From Microbulbifer sp. VAAF005 (GTDB lineage Bacteria; Pseudomonadota; Gammaproteobacteria; Pseudomonadales; Cellvibrionaceae), in the NCBI RefSeq assembly GCF_030012985.1, contig NZ_CP120233.1, positions 1,905,001 through 1,969,000 on the forward strand: 64,000 nt of DNA, in the 5' to 3' direction. A program made the position numbers and the translations under genes. Below the pieces are notes generated by a model that was not told where the DNA came from, made no database searches, and was given only the letters and a program-made list of their open reading frames with translations. Positions 27,370-51,957 of the stretch are shown piece after piece. The stretch's first letter is position 1. The number at the start of each line of letters is the position of its first letter.

Positions 27370-28079
27370 ATCGGGTAGCCGGTAGTTTCTAGCTATCGGC
27401 CCCCACACCACTCATCGTGCGGGTCCGCAATGGGCGGTTCCCTATCCGTAATGAATCTCTACCCAACGATAGTGTCGAGCAGCTCTTCATTTGAGTTTAA
27501 TGTCATAGCAGTGCTCTACCTCAACTTTATATCCGACTGGAAACATATCGGTAGGCTAGCCCTGTCTTTTAACTTGTGGAGTTTGGGTTCAGGCCTTCAC
27601 CCTGTCCAAGCTATTAATCTTGGTATTTGGCTACTTTACCGTCGACTGACTACTGTTTAATCACCGTGGTCATTGCTGACCGAAGCACTAAAATGTCCCA
27701 CCACGTTTTTCTATCCCCGCGATGGTGGCAAGCGGATTGGGCATAGTTATGAGTCAACGGCCACCCTGACAGCTCCATAGATACAAGTTAAACATATCTC
27801 CTCCGATAAGAACGTGAACGTTTGCTACATAGCTGAATCATTGACTCTACCCGTTAGACCACATAGCTTCGGTGACCTTGACCACCTCGCCTTCAGGCTG
27901 AGCCTTATAGGATGTTTCTGTTCTTCAGCTTGTAGTTTTCCTAGCGGCCTCCTCCCCACAAGATCTCGCGGTGTTGCAGTTGCCTTTCGCTAGTAGTTAG
28001 CATTTAATGGAACCCATTAAATGGTGATCTTCCCAAAGGGGACTTCCACCGCACTAGTTCACGCCCATACTGGGCGTAC
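27370..28079 (-). mobile_element. Group IIC-attC intron a, ORF-less, full size (710 bp)
   Basis: On the minus strand it starts GTACGCCCAGTATGGGCG, then GGGTGGAAGTCCCC, ...GTGGGGAGGAAGCCGCTAG, ACATCCTATAAGGCT: the domain I layout of group IIC introns such as the Oceanobacillus iheyensis one. It ends with domain V (GAACCGCCCATTGCGGACCC... GTGGTGTGGGGGCC), a domain VI hairpin and CCCGAT. The flanks TAA (27367-27369) and CAAG (28080-28083) rebuild the canonical attC start TAACAAG. No reverse-transcriptase reading frame is present. Confidence 0.85.
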
Positions 28080-28145
28080 CAAGCGCATATTGTCGGGCTG
28101 GTTTTCCACCTCGCTCCAAACCACCCACAAATGCGACTGTTAAAT
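28080..28145 (+). repeat. attC remainder after intron a
   Basis: CAAGCGCAT pairs with ATGCGACTG; core GTTAAAT at 28139-28145. Together with the TAA left of the intron it forms one attC. Confidence 0.65.
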
Positions 28146-29139
28146 GCACAAGGAATCTCGTGGATATTCTAAATAATCGAGAAATTGCAATTGCCATATG
28201 GCTACTGATAATTTCTGTTTATATCTATTCATCCTCAAAGATGGCTGATGTCAGAACCGCTTTTAAACGTGTGTTATCGGCCTTCTTTGTAAGACAAATT
28301 ATTTCTGTCCTTTGCCTGATGGTTGCTTATATGGCAATTGTCATTTATTGGCTTGCTGAGTTGGATCTATGGAATGCTGAGCAGCTCAAAAATACTGTTT
28401 TTTGGTGTGCATCCGTTGGGTTCATGTCAATGTTTAAGCTCGAACAGTTCAAAAAAGACAAAAGCTTCTTCAGACACTCAGTCTTAGATAATTTAAAACT
28501 GCTGGCAATCCTTCAATTTGTCGTTGGCGTATATACTTTCTCCCTTTGGATCGAAGTTCTTCTAGTTCCAGTTTTGGCGTTAATTGCGGCTATGCTAGCT
28601 ATTGCTGAAACCGACAAAAAATATCATCAAGTAAAGGTTCTTTTAGAATATTGCCTGTCTTTATTCGGAATAGTCTTAATTGCTTATACCTTGTACATGT
28701 TAACGACCAAATTTGGCGAGTTTGGGAAAGAGAAAACTGCATACGACTTCTTTGTTCCCCCATTATTGACTCTGTGTTATTTACCGTTTGTTTACATTAT
28801 GTTGGTTTATTCATCATATGAGCAGGTCTTTATCCGTCTTAAATTCTCAATAAAAAATAGATTCAATAGATATGTAGCTAAACTCTACGCAATTGCATTG
28901 TTTAATCTTCGTGTAAATCTACTAGAAAGATGGTCATATCAAGTCGCCAGAGTAAACATAGAATCACATTCTGATCTGGTGGATACCTTTAAGCACGTAT
29001 TTAAAGTGAGATCTTCTGAGAGAAATCCAAAGGAAGTACCAATAGAGCAGGGTTGGAGCCCTTATAAAGCGAAAGACTGATCCTACCCACCAACGACGGA
29101 CACTCTCTTAAGCGATAAACTACGCAGCAGAGGTGCTCT

Positions 29140-29439
29140 ATGACAAGATCAAATAAACCAACCAAAACCACTCGTAAACAGTACTCAGAGGAATATAGAA
29201 AGGATGCCCTAGCACTTGCGCTCAAAGTTGGGGTAAGCGTTGCCGCTAAACAGCTTGGGTTACATCCTTCTCAGATTTACGGATGGCGAAGCAAGGCTAA
29301 GTTACATCAGAGCCGAGGGGATGCCGAGAGAGAGCTGGCCACAGAGAATGCTCGCCTTAAGCGGCAGCTGGCTGAGCAGGCAGAGGAGCTAGCGATCTTA
29401 AAAAAGGCCGCAGCGTACTTTGCAAAGAGCCTGAAATGA
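29140..29439 (+). CDS. IS3-family OrfA of IS3 element 2
   Basis: 99 aa helix-turn-helix protein ([42 protein letters not shown]) with a coiled-coil tail ([31 protein letters not shown]). It binds the IS ends with OrfB. Overlaps orfB through ATGA. Confidence 0.93.
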
Positions 29440-30302
29440 GGTACGCCTTCATGCAAAAGCACAGGCATGAATTCAGCATCAAAGCGATGGCCAAGGTATT
29501 GAACGTATCTCGCAGTGGGTTTTACGACTGGGTGTCAAGATCGGCCGGCCAATCCAGGTACCAGCAGTACCGAATGCAGCTCGATAGCTTGGTACAGCAG
29601 CGCTTTATAGCCAGTAAAGAACGTAGTGGCTCTCCTCGCCTGACGAAGGAATTGGCCAGTGAGGGGAGTAAATATAATCAAAAAACAATTGCTGCCAGCA
29701 TGCGTCGACAGGGCCTACGGGCTAAAGCCGCCAAGAGATATAAAGCCACAACCTATTCAAAACATGGTCTGCCAGTAGCTCCAAATCTGCTCGAGCAGAA
29801 CTTCAATGCTGAAGGGCCGAATCAGAAATGGGCTGGGGATATAACCTACCTGCGAACGGAAGAAGGTTGGTTATATCTGGCTGTAGTGATAGACCTATAT
29901 AGTCGGCTAGTTATTGGTTGGGCGATGTCAGAAACGATGACAGCTACATTGGTCTGTGACGCTCTTCAAATGGCTTTATGGCGACGTAAGAAACCTACGA
30001 ATGTTATCGTGCATACTGACAGGGGAAGCCAGTATTGCTCTAAAGATTATCAATCTTTGATTACAGCTTATGGTCTGCGGTGCAGCATGAGCGCCAAAGG
30101 TAATTGCTATGATAACGCTTGTGCAGAAACATTCTTTCACTCACTTAAGGTAGAAGCAATCCATGGTAACCGCTTTCCCACAAGGTGCCTCATGCGAGAG
30201 ACCGTATTTGAGTATATAGAGATAGACTACAATCGAAATCGCTTACACAGCGCCAATGGCTATCTCAGCCCTGAGGCGTTTGAGGAACAACTAGTCGCTT
30301 AG
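29436..30302 (+). CDS. IS3-family OrfB transposase of IS3 element 2
   Basis: 288 aa with the DDE catalytic triad in [20 protein letters not shown] and [12 protein letters not shown], and an HTH_21 region near residues 55-100. Distinct in sequence from IS3 element 1 at 23.6 kb. Coding is complete, so the element is probably active. Confidence 0.93.
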
Positions 30303-30740
30303 TGGTGTGTCCGTTGTTGATGGGTAGGATCAGACTTCCTGGTAAACAAAGGATTAAATACGGGGTTCTATAATAGGATTTTCGAAGAGGAGTGGTCAGC
30401 ATCATCTCGAATGGAGGAGTTTAACGATGGCATTATCCCTGACAACATCGCTTACTACGTTGAGGGTTCTGAAGAGATTGCAAATGTACTAAAGCTTAAA
30501 GTTAACGTGAACGATGCTGCCAGATCCAAGCAGGCTTGTGAAAAGCTAGAGGGTATGGCAGAAGCTTTGTGCAACTCTAGTTTAAACTTGTCTTTGCCTG
30601 AAGGTATGAAAAACGCTATTTCAAATTGCGAACCATATTCTGAGAAATGTAAAGATAAAACAATTTCATTAGTTGTAGAGAGTTGGCCTAACCATAGGTT
30701 TAATGGGTATGACCTCAAATTTGTCATATCAAGCATTTAA

Positions 30741-30790
30741 ATCGGGTAGCCGGTTGTTTCTAGCTACCGGCCCCCCACACCACCCATCAC
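30741..30790 (-). mobile_element. Group IIC-attC intron b, 3' remnant
   Basis: Domain VI/V end (complement of ATCGGGTAGCCGG...) directly after the stop codon of the disrupted cassette gene. The rest of the intron was split by a Y1-transposase element; its 5' terminal 25-30 bp reappear near 32128-32156. Confidence 0.75.
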
Positions 30791-32127
30791 AAGAAGCAAT
30801 CTAGGACAGCCAATGACTGGAGGGTGGTGCAGACGGCAAGCTAGGACGACAACCAAAGACTGGGGGAGGCCGGCAAAAGAGCTAGCTCCCTCTCTGGCGG
30901 CTCTTTCTCTTTGGTTTACAGGTAAAGGAGATTAAATACTTGGAATTGGTCTTCAGGCTATTGGGATCGCTGTTTTTTGATAAAAGGGCGGTAATCGTGC
31001 TGTTGAGTACTTGAGGCCGGGGTAGATTAGCAGGGCGTAGCTGAGAGGAGGCGCCGACAGTCGCTTATACCGTGTACCCAGCGCTTATCGAGTTGAGCAC
31101 AAACTTTTTGTACAACCTCTACCGATCCAACCAAGCCTTTAAAGCGACTTTCAAAGTTCCGGCTGAGATAGAGCCAGTGCTTGGGTGAAATACCGAGTCG
31201 CTCCAGAATAGGAGGTATGTTTTCGGCAATACAACCCCGTTTTCTTGAGTCTAAATGCCGGCCGCTCCAGTCCACTAACTCCAAATAGTGATCCAGCTGG
31301 AAAGGAAGCCCTTTCGGCATATTCAAACGCTCACCGCCGACAAACGGAAGTAGATTTTTGGGCTGCTTACCTGAGACTGCCGCACGAATACGCTGTTGAA
31401 TCGAAGTGTAATCAGACTCTTCAGGTGTCTTGGCAATATTGGCACGGATGGGGTTTAGGTCTACATAGGCCATACAGGCGGCGAGTGCTCTTTCATCCAG
31501 TAAAGCCTGAGACTTGAACCGGCCTTCCCAAAAACGGCCGGTACAGTTGTCTTCAGCATTGGCCTGGCGGGCGATGGATTCATTTAAACAGCGCATAAAC
31601 CAGCTGATATCCATTAGACGCTCCCGCCATAGGGAAACGACCTCTTTTAGCCTGTCTTCCTCAGCGTGATCGAGAGTATCGCCCTGAAGATAGCGCTGGG
31701 CCAAGCTAGAGGCTTTGAAGAGCTGTTGCCAGCGAGTAATTACCTCTGTAAGAGACCACTTGTTAGCCGATTTTGTGTCGATATAGAGCACTATATGGTA
31801 GTGATTACTCATTACTGCATAGGCAGCAATATCTAGCGCAAACACCTCGGCTAACTTATGCATACGGCTTTCATTCCATTCGCGCCGATACTCGTAATCT
31901 TTTCCGGATTTACTATCTCTGCCACAGAGAAATGCACGGCGTACACAGCGGGAGACACAGTGATAGTACGGTGTTGTATCAAGAGATATCTGGGTGCTTC
32001 GCGGTAGAGTCATCGGCTGCACACGCACCTAGCTGTATACATATACAGTATTTTGTGGGATTTCAATCTTTTGTCAATAGGGATGGCGGTTTATACTTTC
32101 TATTTGGTGGGTGTCCAGGATTAACTG
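30791..32127 (-). mobile_element. Y1 (RAYT-like) transposase element, copy A, nested in intron b
   Basis: Shares about 1.25 kb of near-identical sequence with copy B (37.6-38.9 kb). The left side has the CAATCTAGGACAGCC unit; the right side ends TTGGTGGGTGTCCAGGAT. Intron b sequence lies on both sides, so the element entered the intron. Exact ends are uncertain by some tens of bases. Confidence 0.7.
31027..32028 (-). CDS. REP-associated tyrosine transposase-like protein (Y1_Tnp), copy A
   Basis: 333 aa. N-terminal Y1 domain with YYHCVSRCVRRAFLCGRD and the metal-binding AVMSNHYHIVL (HYH, about residues 78-80), followed by WFMRCLNESIARQANAEDNCTGRFWEGRFKSQALLD. These IS200/IS605-related enzymes act on palindromic ends as single strands. 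Copy B (37790-38785) differs at only a few residues. Confidence 0.85.
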   Translation of the reverse strand: MRVQPMTLPRSTQISLDTTPYYHCVSRCVRRAFLCGRDSKSGKDYEYRREWNESRMHKLAEVFALDIAAYAVMSNHYHIVLYIDTKSANKWSLTEVITRWQQLFKASSLAQRYLQGDTLDHAEEDRLKEVVSLWRERLMDISWFMRCLNESIARQANAEDNCTGRFWEGRFKSQALLDERALAACMAYVDLNPIRANIAKTPEESDYTSIQQRIRAAVSGKQPKNLLPFVGGERLNMPKGLPFQLDHYLELVDWSGRHLDSRKRGCIAENIPPILERLGISPKHWLYLSRNFESRFKGLVGSVEVVQKVCAQLDKRWVHGISDCRRLLSATPC

Positions 32128-32156
32128 ACCCCATTAGTTCACGCCCATACTGGGCG
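32128..32156 (-). mobile_element. Group IIC-attC intron b, 5' remnant
   Basis: CCCATTAGTTCACGCCCATA then CTGGGCG, the conserved right end of the intron family; the last TAC of the usual end is missing. Confidence 0.6.
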
Positions 32157-32233
32157 AAGCACGATCGCCCACAAAACATGCGGACTGGACAGCCCACGCT
32201 TCACCTCGGCCGCTCGAGTGTTGAGCATTATGC
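32157..32233 (+). repeat. attC remainder after intron b
   Basis: Runs from AAGCACGATC to core GCATTATGC at 32225-32233, with internal GGACTGGACAGCCC. Left edge slightly damaged. Confidence 0.5.
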
Positions 32234-32248
32234 GGGAAATCTAATACG

Positions 32249-32671
32249 ATGAAGAGAGAAGGGATTTATTATATAAAGCTAAAAAAGCCGTATTTCGACT
32301 TATCAAAAGGCGATTTATTGTATATCGGAAAAGGCAATGATGTTGATTCTCGCCTTAAAGCTGAGTTGGGTTTAAAATCCAGCCATGCAACCTTTTTTAG
32401 ATCTTTAGGCTTATTATTAAATAAAGAGGTTGCTGAAAACTCCGGAAAGAAAGGCACTGGTTACAATTTTAAGTTTAAAAAACCACATGAAATTGTTAAG
32501 TGGATCGAAGAATATGTTGAGCATGAAGTAAAATACTGTAAATGGAGGGAGGTAGAGGAAAAAGAAATACGCAAGCACAAACCTTTGCTTAACATTGTAT
32601 ACAATACGCAACATTGCCATTCAGAGCTAACCAGCTTAAGAAAACAAGCTCATGAAATTGCCAAAAAGTAA
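32249..32671 (+). CDS. GIY-YIG-like nuclease, cassette gene
   Basis: 140 aa. GIYYIKL (residues 5-11) and LLYIGKGNDVDSRL (23-36) match the GIY-YIG core with its downstream Arg; EVEEKEIRKHKPLLN (about 108-122) matches the Glu plus KPxLN end. The family makes single metal-dependent strand cuts in repair, restriction or homing. It starts 15 bp after an attC core, and an intron follows. No partner gene. Confidence 0.7.
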   Translation: MKREGIYYIKLKKPYFDLSKGDLLYIGKGNDVDSRLKAELGLKSSHATFFRSLGLLLNKEVAENSGKKGTGYNFKFKKPHEIVKWIEEYVEHEVKYCKWREVEEKEIRKHKPLLNIVYNTQHCHSELTSLRKQAHEIAKK

Positions 32672-32683
32672 AGTATCGCATAA

Positions 32684-33162
32684 ATCGGGTAGCCGATAGT
32701 TTCTAGCTACCGCCCCCTGCGGGTCCGCAATGGGCAGTTCCCTATCCGTAATGAATCTCTACCCAAAAGTGAGGCGCTGCTATGTTCTACCACTTTTTTC
32801 TATCTCCGCGATGGTGGGGCTAGCGGGTTGGGCCTACATATGAATCAGCGGCCACGCTGACAGCTTGACAGTGGAAAGCTAAACAAATCTCCCCAGATAA
32901 GAACGTGAATTTTCACTACACAACTGCATCATTGACTCTACCGATTAGATCACCCGGCTTTGGCTCCCCTGGCCACCTCGCCTTCAGGCTAAGCCCTATA
33001 GGATGTATCTGTCCGTCAGCTCATAGCTTTACTAGCTGATTCCTACCCACAAGATCTCACAGTATTGCAGTTGCCATTCGCTAGTAGTTAGCATTTAATG
33101 GAAACCATTAAATGGTGACCTTCCTAAAGGGGACTTTTAGCCCACTCCCATACTGGGCGTAC
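32684..33162 (-). mobile_element. Group IIC-attC intron c (479 bp, internally deleted)
   Basis: Same 3' end (complement of ATCGGGTAGCCG) and 5' end (complement of TGGGCGTAC) as intron a. It lacks about 230 bp of the middle; the domain V region is also altered (CACACCACCCATCG missing). Flanked by TAA and CAAG. Confidence 0.8.
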
Positions 33163-33265
33163 CAAGGACCTGTAATTTGACCTCCGTCCGCTGTCACCTT
33201 TTTTGCAAAAAAACTGCACAATAGGTGTCAATATCCTCCGACAATTGAAGGGCCGCTAGCGAATA
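33163..33265 (+). repeat. attC remainder after intron c (degenerate)
   Basis: CAAGGACCTG pairs loosely with AATAGGTGTCAATA; no clean GTTRRRY core. Boundary with the next cassette uncertain. Confidence 0.35.
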
Positions 33266-33280
33266 TCACAAGGAAGAAAC

Positions 33281-33823
33281 ATGTTAGCAACACATCAGGA
33301 TGCCGAAAGGCGATATGAATCATTTAGAGAAATGGCTAGAGACGCCATATTGAAAGAGCTTCCCTATACCGATAGAAACAACATTCGTCTCAGTAACATT
33401 TGTCAAAAAGCCCTAATGCAGGCAAAGCTATGGGATGAAGACCCCAATAGGCGAGTTGATTGGCCTTGGGATAGTGGCTATCAGGATTATTCATATAGAA
33501 ATCCCAAGCGATTTGAACTGGCCACCTGGTATGGAAATACCCTTGCAGGCCTAAGCTTAGGTAGACCTAGCTACGCAGGCACACGACTTCGCCTAGAATT
33601 TATCGAATCTAGGCCGTCTTCAAGTCCTCTTAGAGGGCGGATTGTTCCTATAACCATCTCAGTTGCCGAGTTGTATGCAAATGTTATTGGAGCTGATGAA
33701 TTACGCATAATTGACCCAATTGATGAAAAATTGATCGAATACTATTCGTCATTCGGATATACATACAGCAAAGCTGCTAGTGAAAAGAATCACAAGCACT
33801 ATCTTGTGAAGGCCATCTCATGA
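33281..33823 (+). CDS. Cassette protein of unknown function, possibly GNAT-like
   Basis: 180 aa. Residues about 95-175 (LSLGRPSYAGTRLRLEFIESRPSSSPLRGRIVPITISVAELYANVIGADELRIIDPIDEKLIEYYSSFGY) resemble an acetyltransferase-like fold by pattern, but no clear acetyl-CoA motif is seen. AAGGAAGAAAC ribosome site. Two very small genes follow, overlapping by ATGA, so this is a multi-gene cassette. Confidence 0.6.
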   Translation: MLATHQDAERRYESFREMARDAILKELPYTDRNNIRLSNICQKALMQAKLWDEDPNRRVDWPWDSGYQDYSYRNPKRFELATWYGNTLAGLSLGRPSYAGTRLRLEFIESRPSSSPLRGRIVPITISVAELYANVIGADELRIIDPIDEKLIEYYSSFGYTYSKAASEKNHKHYLVKAIS

Positions 33824-33996
33824 GCAAGAACGAAAGAAAAAAACCATTAACTCCTGAAGAGCTTAGAAAGAGAGCTAAGAAGATTCTTCAAGATAACCCA
33901 ACATACATAAATGATGAACCATCGGTTGTCGGATCACCAGAGACACTAACTGAAGAGATTGAGGATGATGATGAACCAACAAACGACAAAAAGTGA
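33820..33996 (+). CDS. 58-aa charged protein, translationally coupled
   Basis: Begins at the ATGA overlap with the preceding gene: MSKNERKKPLTPEELRKRAK, then an acidic tail (EEIEDDDEPTNDKK). A basic helix followed by an acidic tail is seen in small antitoxin or adaptor proteins, but there is no family match. Coupling supports it being real. Confidence 0.5.
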   Translation: MSKNERKKPLTPEELRKRAKKILQDNPTYINDEPSVVGSPETLTEEIEDDDEPTNDKK

Positions 33997-34096: not shown

Positions 34097-34753
34097 ATCG
34101 GATAGCCGGTAGTTTCTAGCTACCGGCCCCCACACCACCCATCATTCGAGTCCGCAACGGCCGGTTCCCTATCCGTAATGAGTCTCTACCCAACGAAGTT
34201 GTCGAGCAAGTCTTGGGTTGATTGTCACGGCAATGCGCGCCCCCAACTTTAACCGACTGGAAACATATCGGTTGGCTAGCCCTGTCTTTTAAATCCTGGA
34301 ATTTGGCTACTATGCTGTTGGCTGACTTCTGTTTAATCACCTTGGCCATTACCGACTGCAGCGCTGCTATGTCCCACCACTTTTGCCTATCCCCACGATG
34401 GTGGCTAGCGGTTTGGGCCTACTTATGAGTCAACGGCCACGGTGATAGCTTCACAGCAGCAAGCTAAACGGATCTCCCCAGATAAGAACGTGGACTTTCA
34501 CTACACAGCTGCATCATTGACCCTACCCGTTAGATCACCCGGCTTCGGTGCCCCTGGCCACCTCGCCTCCAGACTGAGCCTTATAGGATGTTTCGGTCCG
34601 TCAGCTCATAGCTTTACTAGCCGCTTCCTCCCCACAAGCCCCCCAGTGTTGCAGTTGCCATTCGCTAATAGTTAGCATTTAATGGAACCCATTAAATGGT
34701 GATCCTCCTACAGGGGACTTTCACCCATTAGTTCACGCCCATGCTGGGTGTAC
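34097..34753 (-). mobile_element. Group IIC-attC intron d (657 bp)
   Basis: Near full-size copy: domain V/VI end at left, domain I with GTGAAAGTCCCCTGT and the TTTAATGG/CCATTAAA hairpin at right. Ends GTACACCC on the minus strand. Flanks TAA and CAATC. No ORF. Confidence 0.85.
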
Positions 34754-34797
34754 CAATCAGCCGACCGCAAAAGCCTCGGCTGATTGAGGCGTTACAT
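34754..34797 (+). repeat. attC remainder after intron d
   Basis: CAATCAGCCGA pairs perfectly with TCGGCTGATTG; core GTTACAT at 34791-34797. One of the best stems in the array. Confidence 0.65.
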
Positions 34798-34815
34798 ATA
34801 CAATGAGGTACAACC

Positions 34816-35421: not shown

Positions 35422-35537
35422 ATTGGGTAACCGGTAGTTTCTAGCTACCGGCCCTTAGACCACCCATCGTTCAGGCCAGTAATGGCCGGTTCCCTATCCG
35501 AAATGAATCTCTACCCAGCGATAGTGTCATGGCAGTG
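35422..35537 (-). mobile_element. Group IIC-attC intron e, truncated (3' end only)
   Basis: Has the domain VI/V end and a partly deleted adjacent region (GTGTCATGGCAGTG joined where other copies have more), then diverges. The intron 5' end and the attC right half are missing, so the next gene is no longer a separate cassette. Confidence 0.7.
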
Positions 35538-36001: not shown

Positions 36002-36483
36002 ATCGGATAGCCGATAGTTTCTAGCTACCGCCCCCGATACCACCCATCGCGCGAGTCGTTATTGGGCGGCTCCCTTTCCGTAATAAATCTCTACCCAACG
36101 ATAATGTCGAGTAGCTCCTCATTTGAATAAAGTATCATGGCGGTGCGCAACTTCCGAGTCAGTGGCCACGCTGACAGCTTCACAGCAGCAAGCTAAACAG
36201 ATATCCCCAGATAAAAACATGAACTTTCACCACACAACTGCATCATTGACTCTATCCACTATATCACTCGGCTGGGTGTCCTTGGCCACCTCGCCCCCAG
36301 GCTAAGTCTTAAAAAATACTTCTATTCGTCAGCTCGTAATTTTGCTAGCGGCCTCCTCCCCACAAGACCTCACGGTGTTGTAGTTGCCATTCGCTAGTAG
36401 TTAGCATTTAATGGAACCCATTAAATGGTGATCTTCCTGCAGGGGACTTTCACCCCATTAGTCTACGCCCATGCTGGGCGTAC
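36002..36483 (-). mobile_element. Group IIC-attC intron f (482 bp, short subtype)
   Basis: Same ends as intron a. The central part joins GCGGTGCGC directly to AACTTCCGAGTCAGTGGCC. Introns h and j carry the same junction. Flanks TAA and CAAG. Confidence 0.85.
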
Positions 36484-37471: not shown

Positions 37472-37545
37472 ATCAGGTGGCCGGTAGTTTCTAGCTACCG
37501 GGCCCCACACCACCCATCGTACGGGCCCACAATGGGCGGCTCCCC
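37472..37545 (-). mobile_element. Group IIC-attC intron g, 3' part
   Basis: Domain VI and V end in complement. Interrupted after GGGCGGCTCCC by Y1-transposase element copy B. Confidence 0.75.
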
Positions 37546-37550
37546 GGAGC

Positions 37551-37618
37551 AATCTAGGACAGCGGACAGCAATCTAGGACAGCAATCTAGGACCGACAGC
37601 AATCTAGGACAGCCAATG
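37551..37618. repeat. Tandem short repeats of the RAYT element
   Basis: Four copies of CAGCAATCTAGGAC-type units with slight spacing changes. Single copies occur near 30795 (element A) and, shortened, at 40869 inside intron i. Confidence 0.7.
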
Positions 37619-37789
37619 ACTAGAGAGTGGTGCCGGCAATAGAGCTAGCTCCCTCTCTGGCGGCTCTTTCTTTTTGGTTTACAGGTAAAGGAGATTAAAT
37701 ACTTGGAATTGGTCTTCAGGCTATTGGGATCGCTGTTTTTCGATAAAAGCGCGGTAATCGTGCTGTTGAGTACTTGAGGCCGGGGCAGA

Positions 37790-38785
37790 TTAGCAGGGCG
37801 TAGCTGAGAGGAGGCGCCGACAGTCGCTTATACCGTGTACCCAGCGTTTATCGAGTTGAGCACAAACTTTTTGTACAACCTCTACCGATCCCACCAAGCC
37901 TTTAAAGCGACTTTCAAAGTTCCGGCTGAGATAGAGCCAGTGCTTGGGTGAAATGCCGAGTCGCTCCAGAATAGGAGGTATGTTTTTGGCAATACAACCC
38001 CGTTTTCTTGGGTCTAAATGCCGGCCGCTCCAGTCCACTAGCTCCAAATAGTGATCCAGCTGGAAAGGAAGCCCTTTCGGCATATTCAAACGCTCACCGC
38101 CGACAAACGGACTTAGATTTTTGGGCTGCTTACCTGAGACTGCCGCACGAATACGCCGTTGAATCGAAGTGTAATCAGACTCTTCAGGTGTCTGGGCAAT
38201 ATTGGCACGGATGGGGTTAAGGTCTACATAGGCCATACAGGCGGCGAGTGCTCTTTCATCCAGTAAAGCCTGAGACTTGAACCGGCCCTCCCAAAAGCGG
38301 CCTGTACAGTTGTCTTCAGCATTGGCCTGGCGGGCGATGGATTCATTTAAACAGCGCATAAACCAGCTGATATCCATTAGACGCTCCCGCCATAGGGAAA
38401 CGACCTCTTTTAGCCTGTCTTCTTCAGCGTGATCGAGAGTATCGCCCTGAAGATAGCGCTGGGCCAAGCTAGAGGCTTTGAAGAGTTTTTTCCAGCGAGT
38501 AATTACCTCTGCAAGAGACCACTTGTTAGCCGATTTTGTGTCGATATAGAGCACTATATGGTAGTGGTTACTCATTACTGCATAGGCTGCAATATCTAAC
38601 GCAAACACCTCGGCTAACTTATGCATACGGCTTTCAATCCATTCGCGCCGATGCTCGTAATCTTTTCCGGATTCAGTATCTCTGCCACAGAGAAATGCAC
38701 GCCGTACACAGCGGGAGACACAGTGATAGTACGGTGTTGCATCAAGAGATATCTGGGTGCTTCGCGGTAGAGTCATCGGCTGCAC
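37790..38785 (-). CDS. REP-associated tyrosine transposase-like protein (Y1_Tnp), copy B
   Basis: 331 aa, same domain layout as copy A at 31027-32028 (HYH motif in AVMSNHYHIVL; CTGRFWEGRFKSQALLD). Differences are scattered single substitutions such as TRWKKL for TRWQQL. Both copies are intact, which suggests recent duplication or ongoing activity. Confidence 0.85.
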   Translation of the reverse strand: MQPMTLPRSTQISLDATPYYHCVSRCVRRAFLCGRDTESGKDYEHRREWIESRMHKLAEVFALDIAAYAVMSNHYHIVLYIDTKSANKWSLAEVITRWKKLFKASSLAQRYLQGDTLDHAEEDRLKEVVSLWRERLMDISWFMRCLNESIARQANAEDNCTGRFWEGRFKSQALLDERALAACMAYVDLNPIRANIAQTPEESDYTSIQRRIRAAVSGKQPKNLSPFVGGERLNMPKGLPFQLDHYLELVDWSGRHLDPRKRGCIAKNIPPILERLGISPKHWLYLSRNFESRFKGLVGSVEVVQKVCAQLDKRWVHGISDCRRLLSATPC

Positions 38786-38917
38786 GCATGCTTATATGTA
38801 TAAACATACAGCATTTTGTGGGATTTTAATCTTTTGTCAATAGGGCTGGCGGTTTATACTTTCTATTTGGTGGGTGTCCAGGATAGTTGTTCCTTTGGTG
38901 GGTGTCCAGGATAGTTG

Positions 38918-39021
38918 TTCGTTGCCATTCGCCAGTAGTTAGCATTTAATAGAATCCATTAAAAGGCGATTTCCCTAAAGGGGACTTTCGCTCCATTAGT
39001 CCGCGCCCATGCAGGGGCTAC
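38918..39021 (-). mobile_element. Group IIC-attC intron g, 5' part
   Basis: GTTGCCATTCGCCAGTAGTT...CATTAAAAGG...GGGGACTTTCG...GGGGCTAC, the conserved right side of the intron with several substitutions at its first bases (GTAGCCCC on the minus strand). Confidence 0.75.
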
Positions 39022-39098: not shown

Positions 39099-39608
39099 AT
39101 GATATTGGAAACTACACTAACCAAACATGAAGCTATTTCTAAATTTAGGGAGCAAAATAGGATAGCTAAGCCGGTTATTTATCTAAAGCAACTTGATAAA
39201 CAAATGATTTATCGAATGGGAAAAAATGATACTACAAGAATAACCAGATTAAGACATCATGAAGATAGCCGCCCAATGAAGAGTGTTAATAAAAGAACGG
39301 GGATTGAAACCTCGAAGAGGAATGAAATAATCACCTTCAAAGAAAACGATGAGCTTTATGTATTAGAAAAATCAGGCGGCGTCTCTTTATTTGATGCTAT
39401 GAGCCCAAAACTAAAAATGGGAAAAAATGATTGCTGGTATTATGTGCCAAAGAATGTCGTTATACCAGAGGGAATTCTTATCGCCAAGGATGTTGAGCCT
39501 GACGCATATGGACATTTTCACTATGCTTTCCAGCCTGCATACAGCATGAAATTATCAGAATTCACTGATAAACTGAGTGAAATTGGAACACAGATGAGAA
39601 AGGTATGA
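39099..39608 (+). CDS. Tse2-like (ADP-ribosyltransferase-fold) toxin, cassette gene
   Basis: 169 aa. The C-terminal half follows the Tse2 pattern: GGVSLFD (93-99), then a Trp and IPEGILIAKD (122-131), HYAFQPAYSM (141-150) and a final SEFTDKL helix, comparable to GTSVFD...IPxxLxVxxD...HYxIxPxxxM in Pseudomonas Tse2. Tse2 is a cytotoxic effector with an NAD-dependent fold. The gene starts after ACAAGGAAGAAATA and overlaps the next small gene by ATGA, the usual toxin-antitoxin layout. The family call is by motif recollection. Confidence 0.65.
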   Translation: MILETTLTKHEAISKFREQNRIAKPVIYLKQLDKQMIYRMGKNDTTRITRLRHHEDSRPMKSVNKRTGIETSKRNEIITFKENDELYVLEKSGGVSLFDAMSPKLKMGKNDCWYYVPKNVVIPEGILIAKDVEPDAYGHFHYAFQPAYSMKLSEFTDKLSEIGTQMRKV

Positions 39609-39868: not shown

Positions 39869-40337
39869 ATTGGGTAACCGATAGTTTCTAACTACCGGCC
39901 CCCACACTACCCATCGTGCGAGTTCACAATGGGCGGTTCCCGATCCGCAATGAATTTCTATCCAGCGATAGTGTCGAGCAGCTCTTCATTTGAGTAGAGT
40001 ATCACTGCGGTGCGCTACTTCCAAGTCAGCGGCCACGCCGACAACTTCACAGAAACAAGCTAAACTGATCTCCGCAGATAAGAGCGTGAACTTTCACTAC
40101 ACAACTACATCATTGACTCTGCCCGTTAGATCATCTGGCTTCGGTGATCTTCCCCACCTCGCCTACGAGCTCAGCCTTATAGGATATTTCTGTTTATCAG
40201 TTCGTGGTCTTACCAGCGGTTTCCTCTCCACAAAACCTCACGATATTACAGTTGCCATTCGCTGGTAGTTAGCATTAAATGGTGATCCTCCTACAGGGGA
40301 CTTTCATTCCATTAGTTCACGCCGATGCTGGGAATAC
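39869..40337 (-). mobile_element. Group IIC-attC intron h (469 bp, short subtype)
   Basis: Same ends and the same internal junction as intron f (GCGGTGCGC followed by TACTTCCAAGTCAGCGGCC). Flanks TAA and CAAG. Confidence 0.85.
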
Positions 40338-40777: not shown

Positions 40778-40877
40778 ATCGGGTAGCCGGTAGTTTCTAA
40801 CTACTAGCCCCCACACTACCCATCATGCGAGTCTGCAATGAGCAGCTTCCAATCCGTAATGAATATCTACCCAGCAG
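40778..40877 (-). mobile_element. Group IIC-attC intron i, truncated (3' end)
   Basis: Follows TGA (in place of the usual TAA). Breaks off after CTACCCAGC, where a solo AGATCTAGGACAGCC unit of the RAYT repeat begins. The intron 5' part is missing. Confidence 0.7.
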
Positions 40878-40926
40878 AAGATCTAGGACAGCCAAAGACT
40901 GGGAGGTGGTGCCGCCGAACCTGCAC

Positions 40927-41053: not shown

Positions 41054-41818
41054 ATGGAAAAAAGTTACAAATTAAAACCTGACCAAATAGAACGACTGGT
41101 TCCAGACATTGGATTCGCTTTTGCTACAGATATGATAACCGTAGAAGGAAAGAATGTTGATTATATGGTGAGACAGCAGCCTGATCGTGAAGATGATAGT
41201 GGCTGGATATTCTATGGTGGCGGCGAAACACAAGAGTATATGGATAATTCTAATAACACTTCTCTTTTAAGTATTAATACAGTCGCAAATTATGACCCAG
41301 AAATTATCGGATTTCTTACCTACCCTCCCGGAACCGAGATAGAACGAAATAAAGACGGACGATTGCAAGTCGTAACATCCACAGTTAATGAGCCGGAGGT
41401 GGTCTTTCTTCCTCCTGTCGATAGAGGCCCTATTAAGATTTCAAAAAACTGGAGCTTTAATATTTCAGGCCATATGCTAAAACGCCTCGATAAGGGAAGC
41501 CTCGTAATTTGGCGCCCGGAGTTTACTATCTGGTTAGGCTCTTATGATGCAAATGGTGCTGGAATAGAAGAAAGGATTAGCAACGTAATCAAAACTGCGT
41601 CACCAGATAAAACTGACTTTCTAGAAATTCAAGAAGATGGCGTTCACAAGATCAAATATCACTTACAAGAAGTTACAGATGGAAAAGAACAAAACGCTGT
41701 ATATATTTTCGCCTTAACTGACAATCAAGAAATACACATGGCGATATATTATGACAACCCTAACGATTTGCTAGAAATTGAAGAAATTTGGAAAACACTC
41801 AAGTATACAGGCATATAA
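41054..41818 (+). CDS. DUF2185 (Imm33-like) cassette protein
   Basis: 254 aa. Residues about 17-100 (IGFAFATDMITVEGKNVDYMVRQQPDREDDSGWIFYGGGETQEYMDNSNNTSLLSINTVANYDPEIIGFL) match DUF2185, a domain found in predicted immunity proteins. The C-terminal half (about 125-254) is a separate unrecognised domain. No toxin gene is adjacent. Stop TAA abuts intron j. Confidence 0.72.
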   Translation: MEKSYKLKPDQIERLVPDIGFAFATDMITVEGKNVDYMVRQQPDREDDSGWIFYGGGETQEYMDNSNNTSLLSINTVANYDPEIIGFLTYPPGTEIERNKDGRLQVVTSTVNEPEVVFLPPVDRGPIKISKNWSFNISGHMLKRLDKGSLVIWRPEFTIWLGSYDANGAGIEERISNVIKTASPDKTDFLEIQEDGVHKIKYHLQEVTDGKEQNAVYIFALTDNQEIHMAIYYDNPNDLLEIEEIWKTLKYTGI

Positions 41819-42251
41819 ATCGGGTAGTCGGTAGTTTCTAGCTACCGGCCCCCACACCACCCATCGTACAGGTCCGCAATAGTCAGTTCTCTATCCATCA
41901 TGAATCCCTACCCAACGATAGTGTCGAGCAGCTCTTCATTTGAGTTGGGTGTCATCGCTGTGAGCTACTTCTGAATCAGCAGCTACGCCGACAACTTGAA
42001 AGCAGCAAGCTAAACAGATCTCTCCAGATAAGAACGTAAGCTTTCACTACACAACTGCATCATTGACTCTGCCCGTTATCGGTATCCTTAGCCACATCGT
42101 CTCCAGCCTAAGCCTTATAGGATATTTCTATTTGCCAGCGCGTAGTTTTGCTAGCGGTTTCTTCCCCACAAGACCAGGTGGTGTTGCAGTTGTCATTCGC
42201 TAGTAATTATCATTTAATGGGACCCATTGGTCCACGCCCATCAGGGCGTAC
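41819..42251 (-). mobile_element. Group IIC-attC intron j (433 bp, short subtype)
   Basis: Same junction type as f and h (GCTGTGAGCTACTTCTGAATC...). Additional small deletions near the right end (CCCATTGGTCCACGCCCATC). Flanks TAA and CAAG. Confidence 0.83.
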
Positions 42252-42960: not shown

Positions 42961-43091
42961 ACCGGGTAACTGGTAGTTCTTAGCTACCGGCCCCCACACC
43001 ACCCATCGTGTGGGTCCGTAATGGGAGGTTCCCAGGTAATCCTCCTACATGGGACTATCACCCCATTAGTTCACGTTCATGCTGGGCTTAC
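42961..43091 (-). mobile_element. Group IIC-attC intron k, 131-bp minimal derivative
   Basis: Keeps only the domain V/VI end (ACCGGGTAACTGG... to GGGAGGTTCCC) joined to the first 55 bp of domain I (AATCCTCCTACATGGGACTA... to GGGCTTAC). Both flanks (TAA and CAAG) are retained, so the deletion is purely internal. Confidence 0.8.
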
Positions 43092-43687: not shown

Positions 43688-44396
43688 ATCGGGTAGCCGG
43701 TAGTTTCTAGCTACCGGCCTCCACACCACCCATCGAGTGGATCCGCAATGGGCTGTTTCCTATCCATAATGAATCTCTACCCAACGATAGGATCAAGTAG
43801 CTCTTCATTTGAGCTGAGTGACATAGCAAAGAACCACCTTAACTTTATTCGCCTGGAAATATATCAGTAGGCTACCCAGTCTTTTAACTCATGAATTAAG
43901 GTTCAGGCCTCCACCGTGTCCAAATTATTAACCTTGGTATTTGGCTACTATGCCATCGGTTGACTTATGTTTAATTACCTTGGCCATTACTGACCGAGGC
44001 ACTGCCGTGTCCCACCATTTTTGTCTGCCCCACGATGGTGGCTAGCGGATTGCGCCTACTTAGGACTCAGCCACTACACCGACAGCTTCATAGCAGCAAG
44101 TTAAACAGATCTCTCCAGATAAGAACTTGAGCTTTCACTACACAACTGCATCATTGACTCTCCCCCCTAAGATAACACCGCTCCAGTGCTCTTGGCCACC
44201 TTACCTCCAGGCTAGCCTTATAAGATGTTTCCGGTCATCAGCTCGTAGTTTTGCTAGCAGCTTACTCCCCCACAAGACCTTACAATATTACAGTTGTTAC
44301 CATTCGTTAGTAGTTAGCATTTAATGGGACCCATTAAATCGTGACCTTACTATAAGGAACTTTCACCCCATTAGTCCATGCCCATGCCGGGTATAC
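43688..44396 (-). mobile_element. Group IIC-attC intron l, full size (709 bp)
   Basis: Second full-size copy, collinear with intron a over its entire length with scattered substitutions. Right flank is CGAG instead of CAAG. No ORF. Confidence 0.85.
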
Positions 44397-45600: not shown

Positions 45601-45789
45601 CGAAAATACGAATGATCTACTGAGAAGTTTCTTCCCGGAAGGTATAAAATTTGACAAAATACTCAAAAGCCGTATAAACACTCATCCATGAAAGATTCTA
45701 AATTACTTGAGCCCACTAGAATTTCTAGCGGGCAGACGTGTGCCACTTATGTTGGCAATCTACGATCTTGGACAACAATATCCTTCATT

Positions 45790-47946: not shown

Positions 47947-48160
47947 GGATACCCGCTATCTCGATGATATTTATTTCCTGAAAGGGTATCGGAAGTTTGA
48001 TGCTAATAATATTTCAAAGCATTACAAAGGATTGCTAAATATTGCAAAACCTGTTGTTGCGTTGGTATTGGCGCATGGGGACTGCTATAGCAGGGCTGTC
48101 CCACATAAATTAGAACAGCCATCCTTTTGATGAGTGGCGTGTTTTCATACTAATTGGATA
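47947..48160 (+). other. Decayed coding stretch, unrecognised
   Basis: A 61-codon frame (LDDIYFLKGYRKFDANNISKHYKGLLNIAKPVVALVLAHGDCYSRA) with no matching family and no ribosome site; probably a gene fragment at the edge of the ISAs1 remnant. Confidence 0.3.
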
Positions 48161-48169
48161 GCGTTATCT

Positions 48170-48345
48170 TTTACATAACTTTGAGGATATAGAATATCCA
48201 CGGGTTGATCGGCAAAAGCCACACCCCCTACCCGATGTTTTAGTTATCATGTTTTGTGGTGCGGAAAGCTGTAGAGGTTTTGTTGATTTCGCAGAATCTA
48301 ACAAAGATCATCTAAAAAATTCACATCTCCAAATAACGGAACACC
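48170..48345 (+). pseudogene. ISAs1-family transposase fragment (N-terminal part)
   Basis: Translates as HNFEDIEYPRVDRQKPHPLPDVLVIMFCGAESCRGFVDFAESNKDHLKNS, the DDE_Tnp_1-associated N-terminal domain of ISAs1/H-repeat transposases (DPRxxRxxxHPLxDILxIxxCAxxxGAExWxxIxxF). No catalytic domain follows. Confidence 0.65.
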
Positions 48346-48518
48346 CTAAAAAACACATTTAGTCGGGTTATTCCAAGCTTAGACCCCAAACAATTAAAGT
48401 GCTGTTTTCTGTAATAGGTTCATGGTATTCAGCAAGAGTTGGGCAACTTGATTGCGACTGATGAGAAGATGTTAAGGTACAGCTTCGATCAAGCTAAAAA
48501 ACAATTTCCAAACATATA

Positions 48519-48890
48519 GTGAGTGCTTTTGCATCTGAAGCTCGGCTTATCCTTGTACAGCAAAAGGTAGAAAAAAATAGAATGAGATTACGGCCACACG
48601 TAAATGCTCTGGCCGATGCCGAGGGCCAAACCATCATGCTGCAGCAGTACCCAGAGCCCAGTGCCCAGTGCCCAGTGCCAACAAAATCGATGAAGAAGCG
48701 AAAAGCGCTGTCGCCAGCGCTGAAGTAAACCATCGAAGGAGTGCGCAATATTCGCAGTGAAATGAATATTTCACTAGTGAGGAAAGGCCCGCTGATCCTA
48801 CGCAATGGCTCTACACGCGATAGAGAGTTTCTAGTTCAGGCGCAAACCCTACTAACCAAGCTATCCAGCCTTTAGACGGTCATCTGGCTA
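48519..48890 (+). pseudogene. Decayed duplicate of the 3' region of valS
   Basis: Stretches such as CAAACCATCATGCTGCAGCA, CGCAGTGAAATGAATATTTC and CTGATCCTACGCAATGGCTC match valS around 20870-21165 ([19 protein letters not shown]... through [16 protein letters not shown]) in order. Several indels and stops. A small CCCAGTGCCCAGTGCC expansion lies inside. It is 27.5 kb downstream of valS and ends beside a fragment of intron. Confidence 0.82.
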
Positions 48891-48907
48891 GAGACTGGTG
48901 ATTCAAC

Positions 48908-48939
48908 AACATTTTAGTTCGCGCCCATGCAGGGCGTGC
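48908..48939 (-). mobile_element. Group IIC-attC intron m, 5' terminal remnant
   Basis: CATTTTAGTTCGCGCCCATG then CAGGGCGTGC, the first 30 bases of the intron in complement, followed by CAAGG. The rest is lost at the valS-fragment junction. Confidence 0.65.
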
Positions 48940-49358
48940 CAAGGGGCTACACCATACAAATTCGAATTGTCACCTTTTATGTCAAAATATGTACAAAGCC
49001 GGCATCAGAATTTGCTCGGTGAGCCAGGCACTTAGTTTTATACACAAGTATTTTTGTTCATATCGGCCCCGAGTTATGCTCTGAACTAGTAGACGAGATA
49101 TTACCTAAATCACTTAAGATCCAATTTTGATGTAAGATAGAGGGTCTTATTTGTACTATAAGAATACTAAATCAGAGCGAATTCACTATTTGTTATAGGT
49201 TTTATGGCCCTCAGGTCTGCAAACGGTACTGTTGGATATAGTCTATGCGAATTTTAGGGCTACATTAAGCTAGTGCTGCAGTGTAGGGACATTGAGTAAT
49301 ACTTAAAAGGTGTGTATAAAATACAGGCCGAGCTTTATAAAAATAAGGGAGATTCTAA
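48940..49358. other. Long AT-rich leader before the amidohydrolase gene, no gene seen
   Basis: Starts with CAAGGGGCTA (attC remainder). No core site or gene recognised. May hold the promoter of the downstream gene. Confidence 0.4.
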
Positions 49359-50624
49359 TTGATAAAATTCCTAAAATATTTTGCCAGCTTTGGTGTCCTT
49401 GGTGGGATCGCATTTATAGTCGCCTACAACCATAATCTATATGTTTGGGAGCAACCAAGTAGAAGCATGTGGATTAGCAATGGTAGCTTATTTGATGGTA
49501 CAGGTACGTTGCCCATTGAGAACCCTGGAATCCTTGTAGAGGATGGTAAAATTTCTTGTCTGGGAGATACTTGTGAAGTACCAATAGATGCTATTCAAGT
49601 TGATGCAGCAGGTAAATCAATTGTACCTGGCCTCATAGAGCTTCACGGTCATTTTTTCAGTGGTAAAGCTGATTCTAGCGAGAGCAGCTTACCTGTAATG
49701 ATTTGGAATTCGATCCGATTGCAACCAGATGTTAGGCGGAAGCTGGTCGAATCAGGTATTACAAGTTATCGTTCCGTCGGCGATCCCAGCTCGGGAATTT
49801 ATAAGCTAAAAAAATCACTTGACGACCAGGAGGTCGCTGGACCACATATGTTTATTGCAGGGCCTATATTTACTGCTCCTGGTGGACATCCGGTTCAAAG
49901 AATACCAAATCGGATGATCGAGCAAATGGTCGTGCAATCCGATGATCCAAAATATGTAAAGGAGAAAATCGCTGCTCTGGTTGAGCAAGGCATTGACGGT
50001 ATTAAAGCCGTCTATCAGGGCCATACAAATGAACAGGGCGAAATCACGTTACCACGCATCTCAAAGGAAACCTTGCAGACTATTACGACGGAAGCCCGCA
50101 AGCATGGGCTTTGGGTTGCGGTACACACAGGCTCTCCACAAGAAACTAATGAAGCTATTAAAGCTGGTATAACTACCATTGAACATGGTGTGCGACATGG
50201 CAATCTCATTAGCCCAGAATCAATGCAATTAATTGTCAAGCACAAAATAGTTTATGTACCAACTTTAGGTCGAGAACCCAAGGGACACCTGAATATACCG
50301 GCCTTACACGAGGCTGGTGTTCAATTTGGTGTTGGCACTGATACACAAGGCAAAATGATTGTTGGTGACAGCTACCACAATGAATTGTCACGCATGGTTG
50401 AAGCTGGATTACCCGATGTAAAAGCACTTTTAGCCGCCACTAGAAATGGGGCCGAAGCTTTGGGGTTAATTGATCAAATGGGGACCATTGAAGTTGGTAA
50501 ATCTGCTGACCTACTACTTGTCGATGGTCAGCCTTGGAGTGATATTCGTGACCTTAAAAATATCAAGATGGTTGTTTTATCGGGACGAATCGCGTTGGAT
50601 AAACGTGAACTGACATCTATGTAA
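49359..50624 (+). CDS. Membrane-anchored amidohydrolase-family protein
   Basis: 421 aa from TTG, after AAGGGAGATTCTAA. N-terminal hydrophobic anchor (residues 5-23), then an amidohydrolase/imidazolonepropionase-like TIM barrel: composite beta-sandwich start NGSLFDGTGTLPIENPGILVEDGKI, VPGLIELHGHF (H96, H98), GIKAVYQGH, LWVAVHTGSP, TIEHGVRHG, FGVGTDTQG and the C-terminal AATRNGAEALGLIDQMGTIEVGKSADLLLVDG. Likely a periplasmic-facing metal hydrolase on an amide, lactone or cyclic substrate; exact reaction unknown. It is larger than a typical cassette gene. Confidence 0.8.
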   Translation: MIKFLKYFASFGVLGGIAFIVAYNHNLYVWEQPSRSMWISNGSLFDGTGTLPIENPGILVEDGKISCLGDTCEVPIDAIQVDAAGKSIVPGLIELHGHFFSGKADSSESSLPVMIWNSIRLQPDVRRKLVESGITSYRSVGDPSSGIYKLKKSLDDQEVAGPHMFIAGPIFTAPGGHPVQRIPNRMIEQMVVQSDDPKYVKEKIAALVEQGIDGIKAVYQGHTNEQGEITLPRISKETLQTITTEARKHGLWVAVHTGSPQETNEAIKAGITTIEHGVRHGNLISPESMQLIVKHKIVYVPTLGREPKGHLNIPALHEAGVQFGVGTDTQGKMIVGDSYHNELSRMVEAGLPDVKALLAATRNGAEALGLIDQMGTIEVGKSADLLLVDGQPWSDIRDLKNIKMVVLSGRIALDKRELTSM

Positions 50625-50654
50625 ATACTCTGTTCCGCCTTTAACGATCTATAA

Positions 50655-51093
50655 ATCGGGTAGCCGGTAGTTACTATCTACCGGTCCCCACACCACCCAT
50701 CGTGCGAGTCCGCAATGTGCGGCTCGCTATCGGTAATGAACATCTACCCAGCGATCACGCAACGATATCAATCGAGCACACTGAAGGTTAACTACAGCAG
50801 GTTAAGCAGATCTCCACAGTTAAGGACGTGAACGGTTTATACACAACTATATCATTTACTCTACCCGTTAGATCATATGGCTTAGGTGTCCTTAGCCACC
50901 TCACCTCCAGGCTAAGCCTTATAGGATGTTTCTATTCGTCAGTTCGTAGTTTTGCTATCGGCTTCCTCCCCACAAGACCTCTCAGTATTGCAGTTGCCAT
51001 TCGCTGTTAGTTAGCATTTAATGGAATCCATTAAATGGTGATCTTCCTACAGGGGACTTTCACTCCATTAGTTCACGCCCATGCTGGGCGTAC
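50655..51093 (-). mobile_element. Group IIC-attC intron n (439 bp)
   Basis: Canonical ends and flanks (TAA, CAAG). Its internal deletion differs from that in f/h/j: CTACCCAGCGATCACGCAAC then GAAGGTTAACTACAGCAGG. Confidence 0.82.
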
Positions 51094-51160
51094 CAAGTCA
51101 ATCAATGCTACCCCTTCGGGGCTGGACCTCCAAACTAAGTGCTCCGGCCCATTATTGAGA
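51094..51160 (+). repeat. attC remainder after intron n
   Basis: CAAGTCAATCAATG pairs with CATTATTGAGAC; internal CCCCTTCGGGGCTGGAC hairpin like that after intron h. Confidence 0.55.
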
Positions 51161-51174
51161 CGATAAGTGAAATA

Positions 51175-51885
51175 ATGAAATACATTCCATTACTCTTACT
51201 ATTGTTGTGGGCTATATCAGAAAATGTTTTTGGGTGTATGAAAGTTTCTCCCTTCATGCTGAAGGAGTATGAGGGTATGTCAGTCTATGAATCGAATTTG
51301 GCGTCGAGTGATATTGCTTTTCGAGGGTACTTAATACAAGCAGAAACTACAGCACGATCAGCTCAAGATGAGGGCGGTGTAAGAATCTATAAGTATCTCA
51401 TAATTGAGCCATTTAAAGGGAATATTAAAAAAAATGAGATTGTGGAGGTATCACAAAATCGTACTTATTGTAGTTTTAACTATAGTATCGACAAAGAACA
51501 TTTAGTTTATCTTACAAAAGATAAAAACGGATTATATCAATTTGGCATGGCTCACTCTGGCCCACTGTATGATCAAACTCTTGATATGGAAAAGAAGGAA
51601 GATGTAGAGCTTTATCAAGAGATCGTAGAAGCCGGTTTAGGATCTGATTATGTGGTCCGATCATATTTTCCCGACGGGACGCCAAGAATTTACACGTATA
51701 GTATTAAAAAAAGCTGGACAAAGTTCGTGCCGCCGGTAGTTTCTAGCTGCCGGCCCCCACACCACCCATCCTACAGGTCCACAAGGGATGGTTACCCATC
51801 CGTAATGAAGCTCTGTTTTGCTTGCGGCTTCGTCCCACAAACCTCACGATGTTGCAGTTGCCATTCTCTGGTAGTTGGCATTTAA
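51175..51885 (+). CDS. Exported cassette protein whose 3' end reads into intron o
   Basis: 236 aa from the ATG at 51175 (KYIPLLLLLLWAISENVFGC), a clear signal peptide; 12 extra codons are open upstream. The mature part has YLIQAETT...KYLIIEPFKGNIKKNEIVEVSQNRTYCSFNY, which suggests a beta-sandwich domain. The last 50 residues, from about KFVPPVVSSCRPPHHPSY, are translated from intron sequence, because a deletion removed the gene's own end and the intron terminus. Function unknown; natural length is probably about 190 aa. Confidence 0.6.
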   Translation: MKYIPLLLLLLWAISENVFGCMKVSPFMLKEYEGMSVYESNLASSDIAFRGYLIQAETTARSAQDEGGVRIYKYLIIEPFKGNIKKNEIVEVSQNRTYCSFNYSIDKEHLVYLTKDKNGLYQFGMAHSGPLYDQTLDMEKKEDVELYQEIVEAGLGSDYVVRSYFPDGTPRIYTYSIKKSWTKFVPPVVSSCRPPHHPSYRSTRDGYPSVMKLCFACGFVPQTSRCCSCHSLVVGI

Positions 51886-51957
51886 TGGAATCCATTAAAT
51901 GGTGATCTTCCTACAGGGGACTTTCACCCCATTAGCTCACGCCCACGCTGGGCGTAC
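51731..51957 (-). mobile_element. Group IIC-attC intron o, truncated and internally deleted
   Basis: Lacks the terminal ATCGGGTAG; starts at CCGGTAGTTTCTAGCTGCCGG and jumps from CCGTAATGAAGCTCTG to TTTTGCTTGCGGCTTCG. The right end is normal (GGGCGTAC). Right flank CATGC. Confidence 0.75.

Follow-up and report, generated by a model that had tools for sequence, protein, structure and literature searches.

The stretch of DNA analysed here (the window) comprises 64,000 nt (C1:1905001-1969000) of Microbulbifer sp. VAAF005, whose genome is a single contig of 5.40 Mb, and holds a cassette array in which one intron without an open reading frame (ORF) occurs again and again. This element is a relative of the group IIC-attC introns, and its ORF-less copies form a family with shared deletions that resembles short interspersed elements (SINEs). 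Our account as a whole is that a non-autonomous, SINE-like branch of the group IIC-attC type spread through such arrays, decayed there and underwent recombination from intron to intron; we give it a probability of about 0.78. An earlier note on the window, made from the sequence alone, had proposed a non-autonomous family of this type, and its reading as a whole is supported. The common deletion of the ORF-less copies, a short subfamily, and cassette genes and attC arms that are re-paired across introns go beyond that note. Comparisons covered 47 further genomes of the genus Microbulbifer (48 with the source genome).

Using nhmmer with the copy at 28079-27370 as query and then with a profile of 13 copies, we found 15 elements between 27370 and 51957, every one on the minus strand and antisense to most of the ORFs lying between them, which matches the number and strand that the earlier note had given. 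Automatic chaining of pieces above 20 bits recovered 14 of them, the other one falling below that cut. None of the genome's 20 matches to the reverse transcriptase family RVT_1 falls inside the window, in agreement with the description of the copies as ORF-less. Rfam models gave eight RF02001 and two RF01998 matches above the gathering score in the window, on the minus strand only, and the same two models match a known plasmid intron, L089. A group II covariance match on the minus strand, which the note had proposed as a check, was thus obtained with these two models but not with the domain V-VI model RF00029, which had no window match above its gathering score. The consensus domain V comprises 13 pairs, a two-base bulge and a CGC triad and is followed by domain VI; a whole-intron structure predicted with RNAalifold from 63 rows was used for these two domains only. 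The ribozyme can be aligned to that of L089, with no gaps in domain V and its CGC triad, and both of its ends resemble those of introns in class 1 integrons. The protein carried by full-length relatives of the element appears to be class C-like, judging from its closest solved structure, the GsI-IIC reverse transcriptase 6ar1 (395 bits, as compared with 151 for LtrA).

Read on the intron strand, the window introns are flanked by TTG on the 5' side and TTA on the 3' side. In the set of 142 chained elements from the source genome and from related loci, 101 of 117 have a 5' exon ending in CTTG or TTTG and 109 of 125 have a 3' exon starting with TTA, so that the flanks TAA and CAAG reported earlier for the opposite strand hold well beyond the window. 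The insertions lie in the attC bottom strand at R'' (G^TTRRRY), antisense to the cassettes. A passage in PMC7923331 gives TTGT/T as the target consensus of the majority of group IIC-attC introns; the window family departs from it and is found at (C/T)TTG^TTA, one base earlier. In the same alignment columns, the putative exon-binding site 1 (EBS1) reads CAAG in the window family (site CTTG^TT) and ACAA in the plasmid intron (site TTGT^T), and all four pairs between EBS1 and intron-binding site 1 (IBS1) of an intron's own site can form in 77 of 96 rows. EBS1 thus appears to have changed in step with the one-base shift of the target. We identify the element as a relative of group IIC-attC introns because of its Rfam matches, its CGC domain V, the class C-like protein of its full-length relatives and this in-step change in EBS1. 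Since its target consensus is shifted by a single base, we file the family as a variant that is related to these introns and appears to work like them.

The 5' exons folded better than controls, with mean folding z-scores of −1.56 for 5' exons, −0.36 for controls and −0.49 for 3' exons. In the fetched loci, 27 homologous attC arms lack the intron and run straight into TTA or TTG; a rebuilt attC in the absence of the element had been set beforehand as a test, and the family passed it. Occupancy was measured by homology to occupied attC arms, a measure that can miss an attC unlike any occupied one. The ratio of elements to empty sites was 14:0 in the window, 20:0 in G093, 10:0 in G072c and 9:0 in G106 and G107, and it was 19:1 in A44, 15:2 in G092a, 9:2 in G108a and 6:3 in A37 and A45 of the source genome. 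As measured in this way, nearly every recognised cassette boundary of the window array carries a copy, as was claimed when the array was first described as colonised by antisense introns of the group IIC-attC type at very high occupancy. A scan of the window for attC sites that relied on the R'/R'' consensus and a stem gave no signal above shuffled sequence, and the occupancy figures do not draw on it. Where the intron splits an attC, the function of that attC would be lost.

The 142 chained elements comprise 49 from fetched loci of the source genome, including five protein-bearing full-length copies, and 93 from related loci; nhmmer hits of at most 20 bits were dropped, as were, in three loci, hits to a second intron family below 40 bits. 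An alignment was built from 105 of these elements and eight protein-bearing rows, with elements of at least 760 nt and one-ended pieces of at most 300 nt omitted. A common join, linking the first codons of the protein gene to its last codons, is present in 81 of the 87 copies of ORF-less size that cover the place, and in 44 copies it lies at exactly identical bases in the alignment. Copies with this join occur in eight genomes (the source genome, G072, G084, G092, G093, G106, G107 and G108). A second deletion (about 338-554) gave a form of about 475 nt, represented by 18 copies in six genomes, and a diagnostic base at the short-form join is found in 17 of these 18 copies and in none of 54 full-length copies. 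Most full-length ORF-less copies have their closest relative among a small number of consensus-like copies, as expected if few sources produced many dead copies. At a threshold of 1e-5 with stricter filters, 30 of the 48 Microbulbifer genomes gave no RF02001 match.

The earlier note had proposed a maturase encoded elsewhere. Protein-bearing introns do exist outside the window, with the frame broken in four of the five full-length copies and open in one (C1:3762823-3764091, 423 aa), and their protein may act on the ORF-less copies in trans. It is 56.0-56.6% identical to plasmid intron proteins in the 30 records listed; in all three plasmid records inspected the intron protein is integron-associated and adjoins resistance genes, and intI1 is in view in two. 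Microbulbifer okhotskensis, with a 92% identical protein, is the only named relative among the matches listed, from which the source genome and very near genomes were possibly omitted. Two protein-bearing introns are 99.9% identical and carry an identical frame break; because their 5' and 3' flanks nevertheless differ, the pair suggests movement of a copy unable to make its own protein. The six copies in G094 encode identical open proteins, a sign of recent activity.

The copies are decayed to differing degrees. Domain V, counted as intact if it retains the CGC triad and no fewer than 12 of its 13 pairs, is so in four of the 13 window copies that have a 3' end and in 45 of 125 overall. The uniform element with a domain V that the earlier note described therefore stands as to the consensus domain V and not as to uniformity, and the spread that it put in the present tense is, for this array, mostly past, given that most window copies are decayed. 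Identity to the consensus varies rather little over the length of the element, from 0.86 to 0.93 in stretches of 30 columns, with no strongly conserved island, and columns 631-660, which hold most of domain V, have the second lowest value (0.871). On these grounds the copies show no sign of selection after insertion. Changes at domain V pairs are mostly one-sided, which we read as decay, and covariation in domain V lends no support to continued function. Among intron-strand changes relative to the consensus in all loci, C>T occurs at 0.091 per site and G>A at 0.050; the excess of C>T perhaps reflects deamination of exposed single strands.

We examined the association of genes and attC arms in 86 two-ended aligned copies, with groups defined from 200 bases of gene-side and 70 bases of attC-side sequence. 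All 13 gene-end groups with at least two members hold more than one attC type, at gene ends that are 91-100% identical, and 13 of 14 attC groups hold more than one gene end; three pairs keep both the gene end and the attC arm. Intron similarity is higher on the side where the exon is shared. For gene-side groups the mean shared-side excess was 0.033 (null −0.026) and was positive in nine of 13, and for attC-side groups it was 0.080 (null 0.027) and positive in 13 of 13, with a permutation p of 0.0005 in both cases; after removal of the eight of 86 copies with ragged ends, p was 0.001 and 0.002, respectively. The clearest chimera, G093_23075, is 99% identical to a copy with the same attC over its first 120 columns and 83% thereafter, whereas over its last 230 columns it is 97% identical to a copy with the same gene end, and 80% before them. 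Integrase exchange acts at R', and the gene, the intron and the attC arm would be expected to travel together; re-pairing of genes and attC arms is therefore not what an integrase predicts. The greater similarity of introns on the shared-exon side points to recombination between introns, for which a RecA-type pathway would be the probable agent.

A number of observations, on the element itself and on re-pairing, weigh against this account. At an E-value of 1, RF00029 found no match in L045 and L103, two loci with young copies, although it matched the plasmid intron L089. The open protein of the source genome reads FSD rather than FFD near the first catalytic Asp. Five genomes with 10-25 RF02001 matches each (G072, G092, G093, G106 and G107; single-contig assemblies for G092 and G093, drafts for the others) have no protein match at E 1e-60, and young-looking copies of G072 and G092 likewise have no matching protein in their own genome at that threshold. 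Six of ten window 5' exons have z-scores above −2 and no hairpin fold. The common join is absent from six of the 87 copies, namely one protein-bearing piece of M. okhotskensis and five copies altered at that place; this absence, the existence of protein-bearing copies that are often broken, and the many private internal deletions would all be expected if every ORF-less copy were an independent degradation of a protein-bearing intron at the same site. Such an origin is scarcely credible in view of an identical join in the remaining 81 copies from eight genomes and of the diagnostic base common to the short form. Introns might instead have been multiplied passively, within cassettes duplicated or shuffled by the integron integrase, as they sit inside cassettes, some attC arms recur across several arrays and the genome does have an integrase gene (C1:1629217-1630293). 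Yet the junction is constant while the 5' exons include many unrelated attC types, the near-identical protein-bearing introns differ in their flanks, an integrase leaves the re-pairing unexplained, and the 27 empty homologous sites by themselves make passive multiplication unlikely; we consider it very improbable. There is a small chance that selection keeps the copies as promoters or terminators of cassette genes. PMC8876359 reports outward promoters in group IIC-attC introns, and one scanned region has six terminator-like sites where shuffles gave 2.1, but a region with two young copies has no promoter-like site where 3.0 were expected from shuffles, and the rather even identity along the element shows no strongly conserved island.

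The remaining observations of this kind concern the age of the re-pairing. If the same genes had been joined to different attC sites before the introns arrived, each combination would have been given its own intron, and intron similarity need not follow the shared side. Indeed, four of the 13 gene-end groups lack a gene-side excess of similarity, and convincing change points are confined to a few single pairs. Among pairs sharing a gene end, change points exceeded the 95% null in four of 27, two of these tracing to a single copy whose 5' end is damaged, and in two of 24 once ragged copies were removed. The corresponding figures for pairs sharing an attC were six of 50 and, without ragged copies, six of 35, including one that changes in the wrong direction; two or three of these pairs look like real mosaics (at least 0.95 falling to about 0.8), and the others drop to 0.66-0.70, as decay could give. 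Unrelated pairs yielded change points of the left-over-right kind in 13 of 400, and in 19 of 400 after ragged copies were removed. Nevertheless, the shared-side excess is present in both directions and persists without the ragged copies, and clear mosaics such as G093_23075 exist. We therefore regard re-pairing that preceded the introns as unlikely and favour recombination between the introns themselves.

The non-autonomous, SINE-like branch probably arose as follows. An autonomous intron of about 1.92 kb in Microbulbifer-type bacteria would have lost most of its reverse transcriptase/maturase gene, once. The remainder of about 708 nt, and later the form of about 475 nt that a second deletion produced, would then have been copied into attC bottom strands at R'', with the target probably chosen by pairing of EBS1 CAAG with IBS1 (C/T)TTG beside the attC hairpin and with the protein presumably supplied in trans by autonomous copies. 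Inserted copies would decay at a near-neutral rate, and in an old array that lies a long way from the integrase gene, as the window array does, nearly every recognised boundary would end up with a copy that is in most cases dead. Being repeated, the introns would at the same time provide homologous DNA, through which recombination could join a cassette gene (on the 3' exon side) to the attC of another cassette (on the 5' exon side). We lean somewhat towards the view that the SINE-like intron has taken over the arrays of Microbulbifer-type bacteria as their recombination substrate, such that ordinary homologous recombination between copies at nearly every boundary re-pairs genes and attC sites and makes new cassettes even where the array has no integrase gene.

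The group IIC-attC introns used for comparison are presumably those of the S.ma.I2 type, to go by the name. With introns of class 1 integron plasmids (NZ_CP071026.1 and NZ_CP031121.1), the window family shares the 5' start GTACGCCCAGCATGGGC, the CGC domain V, antisense insertion into the bottom strand at R'' and a probably class C-like protein that is about 56% identical. Unlike the known group IIC-attC introns, its members mostly have no protein gene, occur in dozens of copies in the source genome, insert one base away (CTTG^TT, with CAAG as the likely EBS1), nearly saturate arrays and have decayed. ORF-less bacterial group II introns that act with a related intron's protein in trans (reviewed in PMC4424553) are similar in that they are ribozymes without a protein, and in several cases the genome also carries related introns that do encode one. 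That review describes ORF-less group II introns as rare in bacteria and introns without an intron-encoded protein as non-mobile; in contrast, the single ORF-less lineage of the window has been amplified to many sites in several species. An integrase-less cassette cluster (CALIN) of Halorhodospira halochloris also contains group II introns, which a passage in PMC7923331 assigns to group IIB; these are two class E introns, both truncated and retaining remnants of a protein, whereas the window has 15 copies of a seemingly class C-like intron. SINEs and miniature inverted-repeat transposable elements offer an analogy, since they too are derivatives that arose by deletion, retain both ends and depend on a partner's enzyme to spread; the window element differs in being a group II ribozyme with an attC hairpin as its target.

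A search of titles and the openings of abstracts, which reached few subscription papers, gave no description of such arrays saturated with ORF-less introns. An ORF-less lineage found at dozens of sites in one genome and common to seven related genomes, with a second, shorter form that has multiplied too, is a bacterial parallel to SINEs. The idea that recombination between group IIC-attC introns joins genes to attC sites appears in a passage of PMC7923331 that credits earlier work (reference-list entry Leon and Roy 2009), and re-pairing across species makes it directly testable.

By size, three of the 15 window copies are near full length (710, 657 and 709 nt), two are split by insertions, two consist of the 3' part and one of the 5' part only, and seven are internally deleted; all are on the minus strand. 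Copy 1 (27370..28079) is a full-length ORF-less copy of 710 nt with an intact domain V, copy 4 (34097..34753) has 657 nt and a CGG triad in domain V, and copy 12 (43688..44396) has 709 nt, an AGC triad and 10 of the 13 pairs. The short form with the deletion at about 338-554 is represented by copy 6 (36002..36483, 482 nt), copy 8 (39869..40337, 469 nt, domain V intact) and copy 10 (41819..42251, 433 nt), the last with an extra 37-nt deletion near the 5' end. Other internal deletions occur in copy 3 (32684..33162, 479 nt, the 3' strand of domain V gone), copy 14 (50655..51093, 439 nt, its domain V counting as intact under the rule given above) and copy 15 (51726..51957, about 232 nt, the usual 3' terminus and flank gone), and in copy 11 (42961..43091, 131 nt) the initial 57 nt or so are fused to domains V-VI. 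Only a 3' part remains of copy 5 (35422..35529) and copy 9 (40778..40880), and copy 13 (48869..48939) is a 71-nt 5' fragment with a weak match (11.8 bits, E 0.003) that retains its CTTG flank. Insertions split copy 2 (30741..32159) and copy 7 (37472..39021, domain V intact), the latter by a sequence with an ORF at 37790-38785 that weakly matches an IS200-like (Y1) transposase. Repeats at 30869-31168 and 37632-37931, inside these two insertions, are 98% identical.

The left chromosomal flank of the array holds the valyl-tRNA synthetase gene valS (18484..21441, plus strand), which also adjoins intron arrays in G092, G093, G108 and G072; this flank is 93-95% identical beside the arrays of the first three and 89% in G072, and G106 and G107 have short matches to it that are weaker. 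Some stretches of the right flank recur in G092 and G093 at 84-85% identity. The integrase noted above (359 aa) is the genome's sole match to PF13495 and lies about 300 kb from the array, and tblastn with it found no second one in the fetched loci including the window, PF00589 not having been searched; the window array is thus a CALIN, a cluster of cassettes or attC sites without an integrase close by. In the region of the integrase gene (locus L048, 6547-12296; C1:1624-1630 kb), the integrase is adjoined by an ORF that we take from its sequence to be chorismate-synthase-like, and nearby is a different intron family, whose protein is 43% identical to that of the window family. Within the window, the cassette ORFs at 39099-39608 and 41054-41818 match a Tse2-type ADP-ribosyltransferase domain and the Imm33 immunity domain, respectively, and ORFs at 52017-54491, which may be intron-free cassettes, lie past the last intron copy. 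Next to an intron of the G072 array, L103 has a match to the cspA thermoregulator (1290-1655, minus strand; 73.9 bits, gathering score 78). In L046, the starts of the second intron family (14915, minus strand) and of the window family (14960, plus strand) are separated by 45 bases and lie on opposite strands, one on each side of a single attC-like hairpin.

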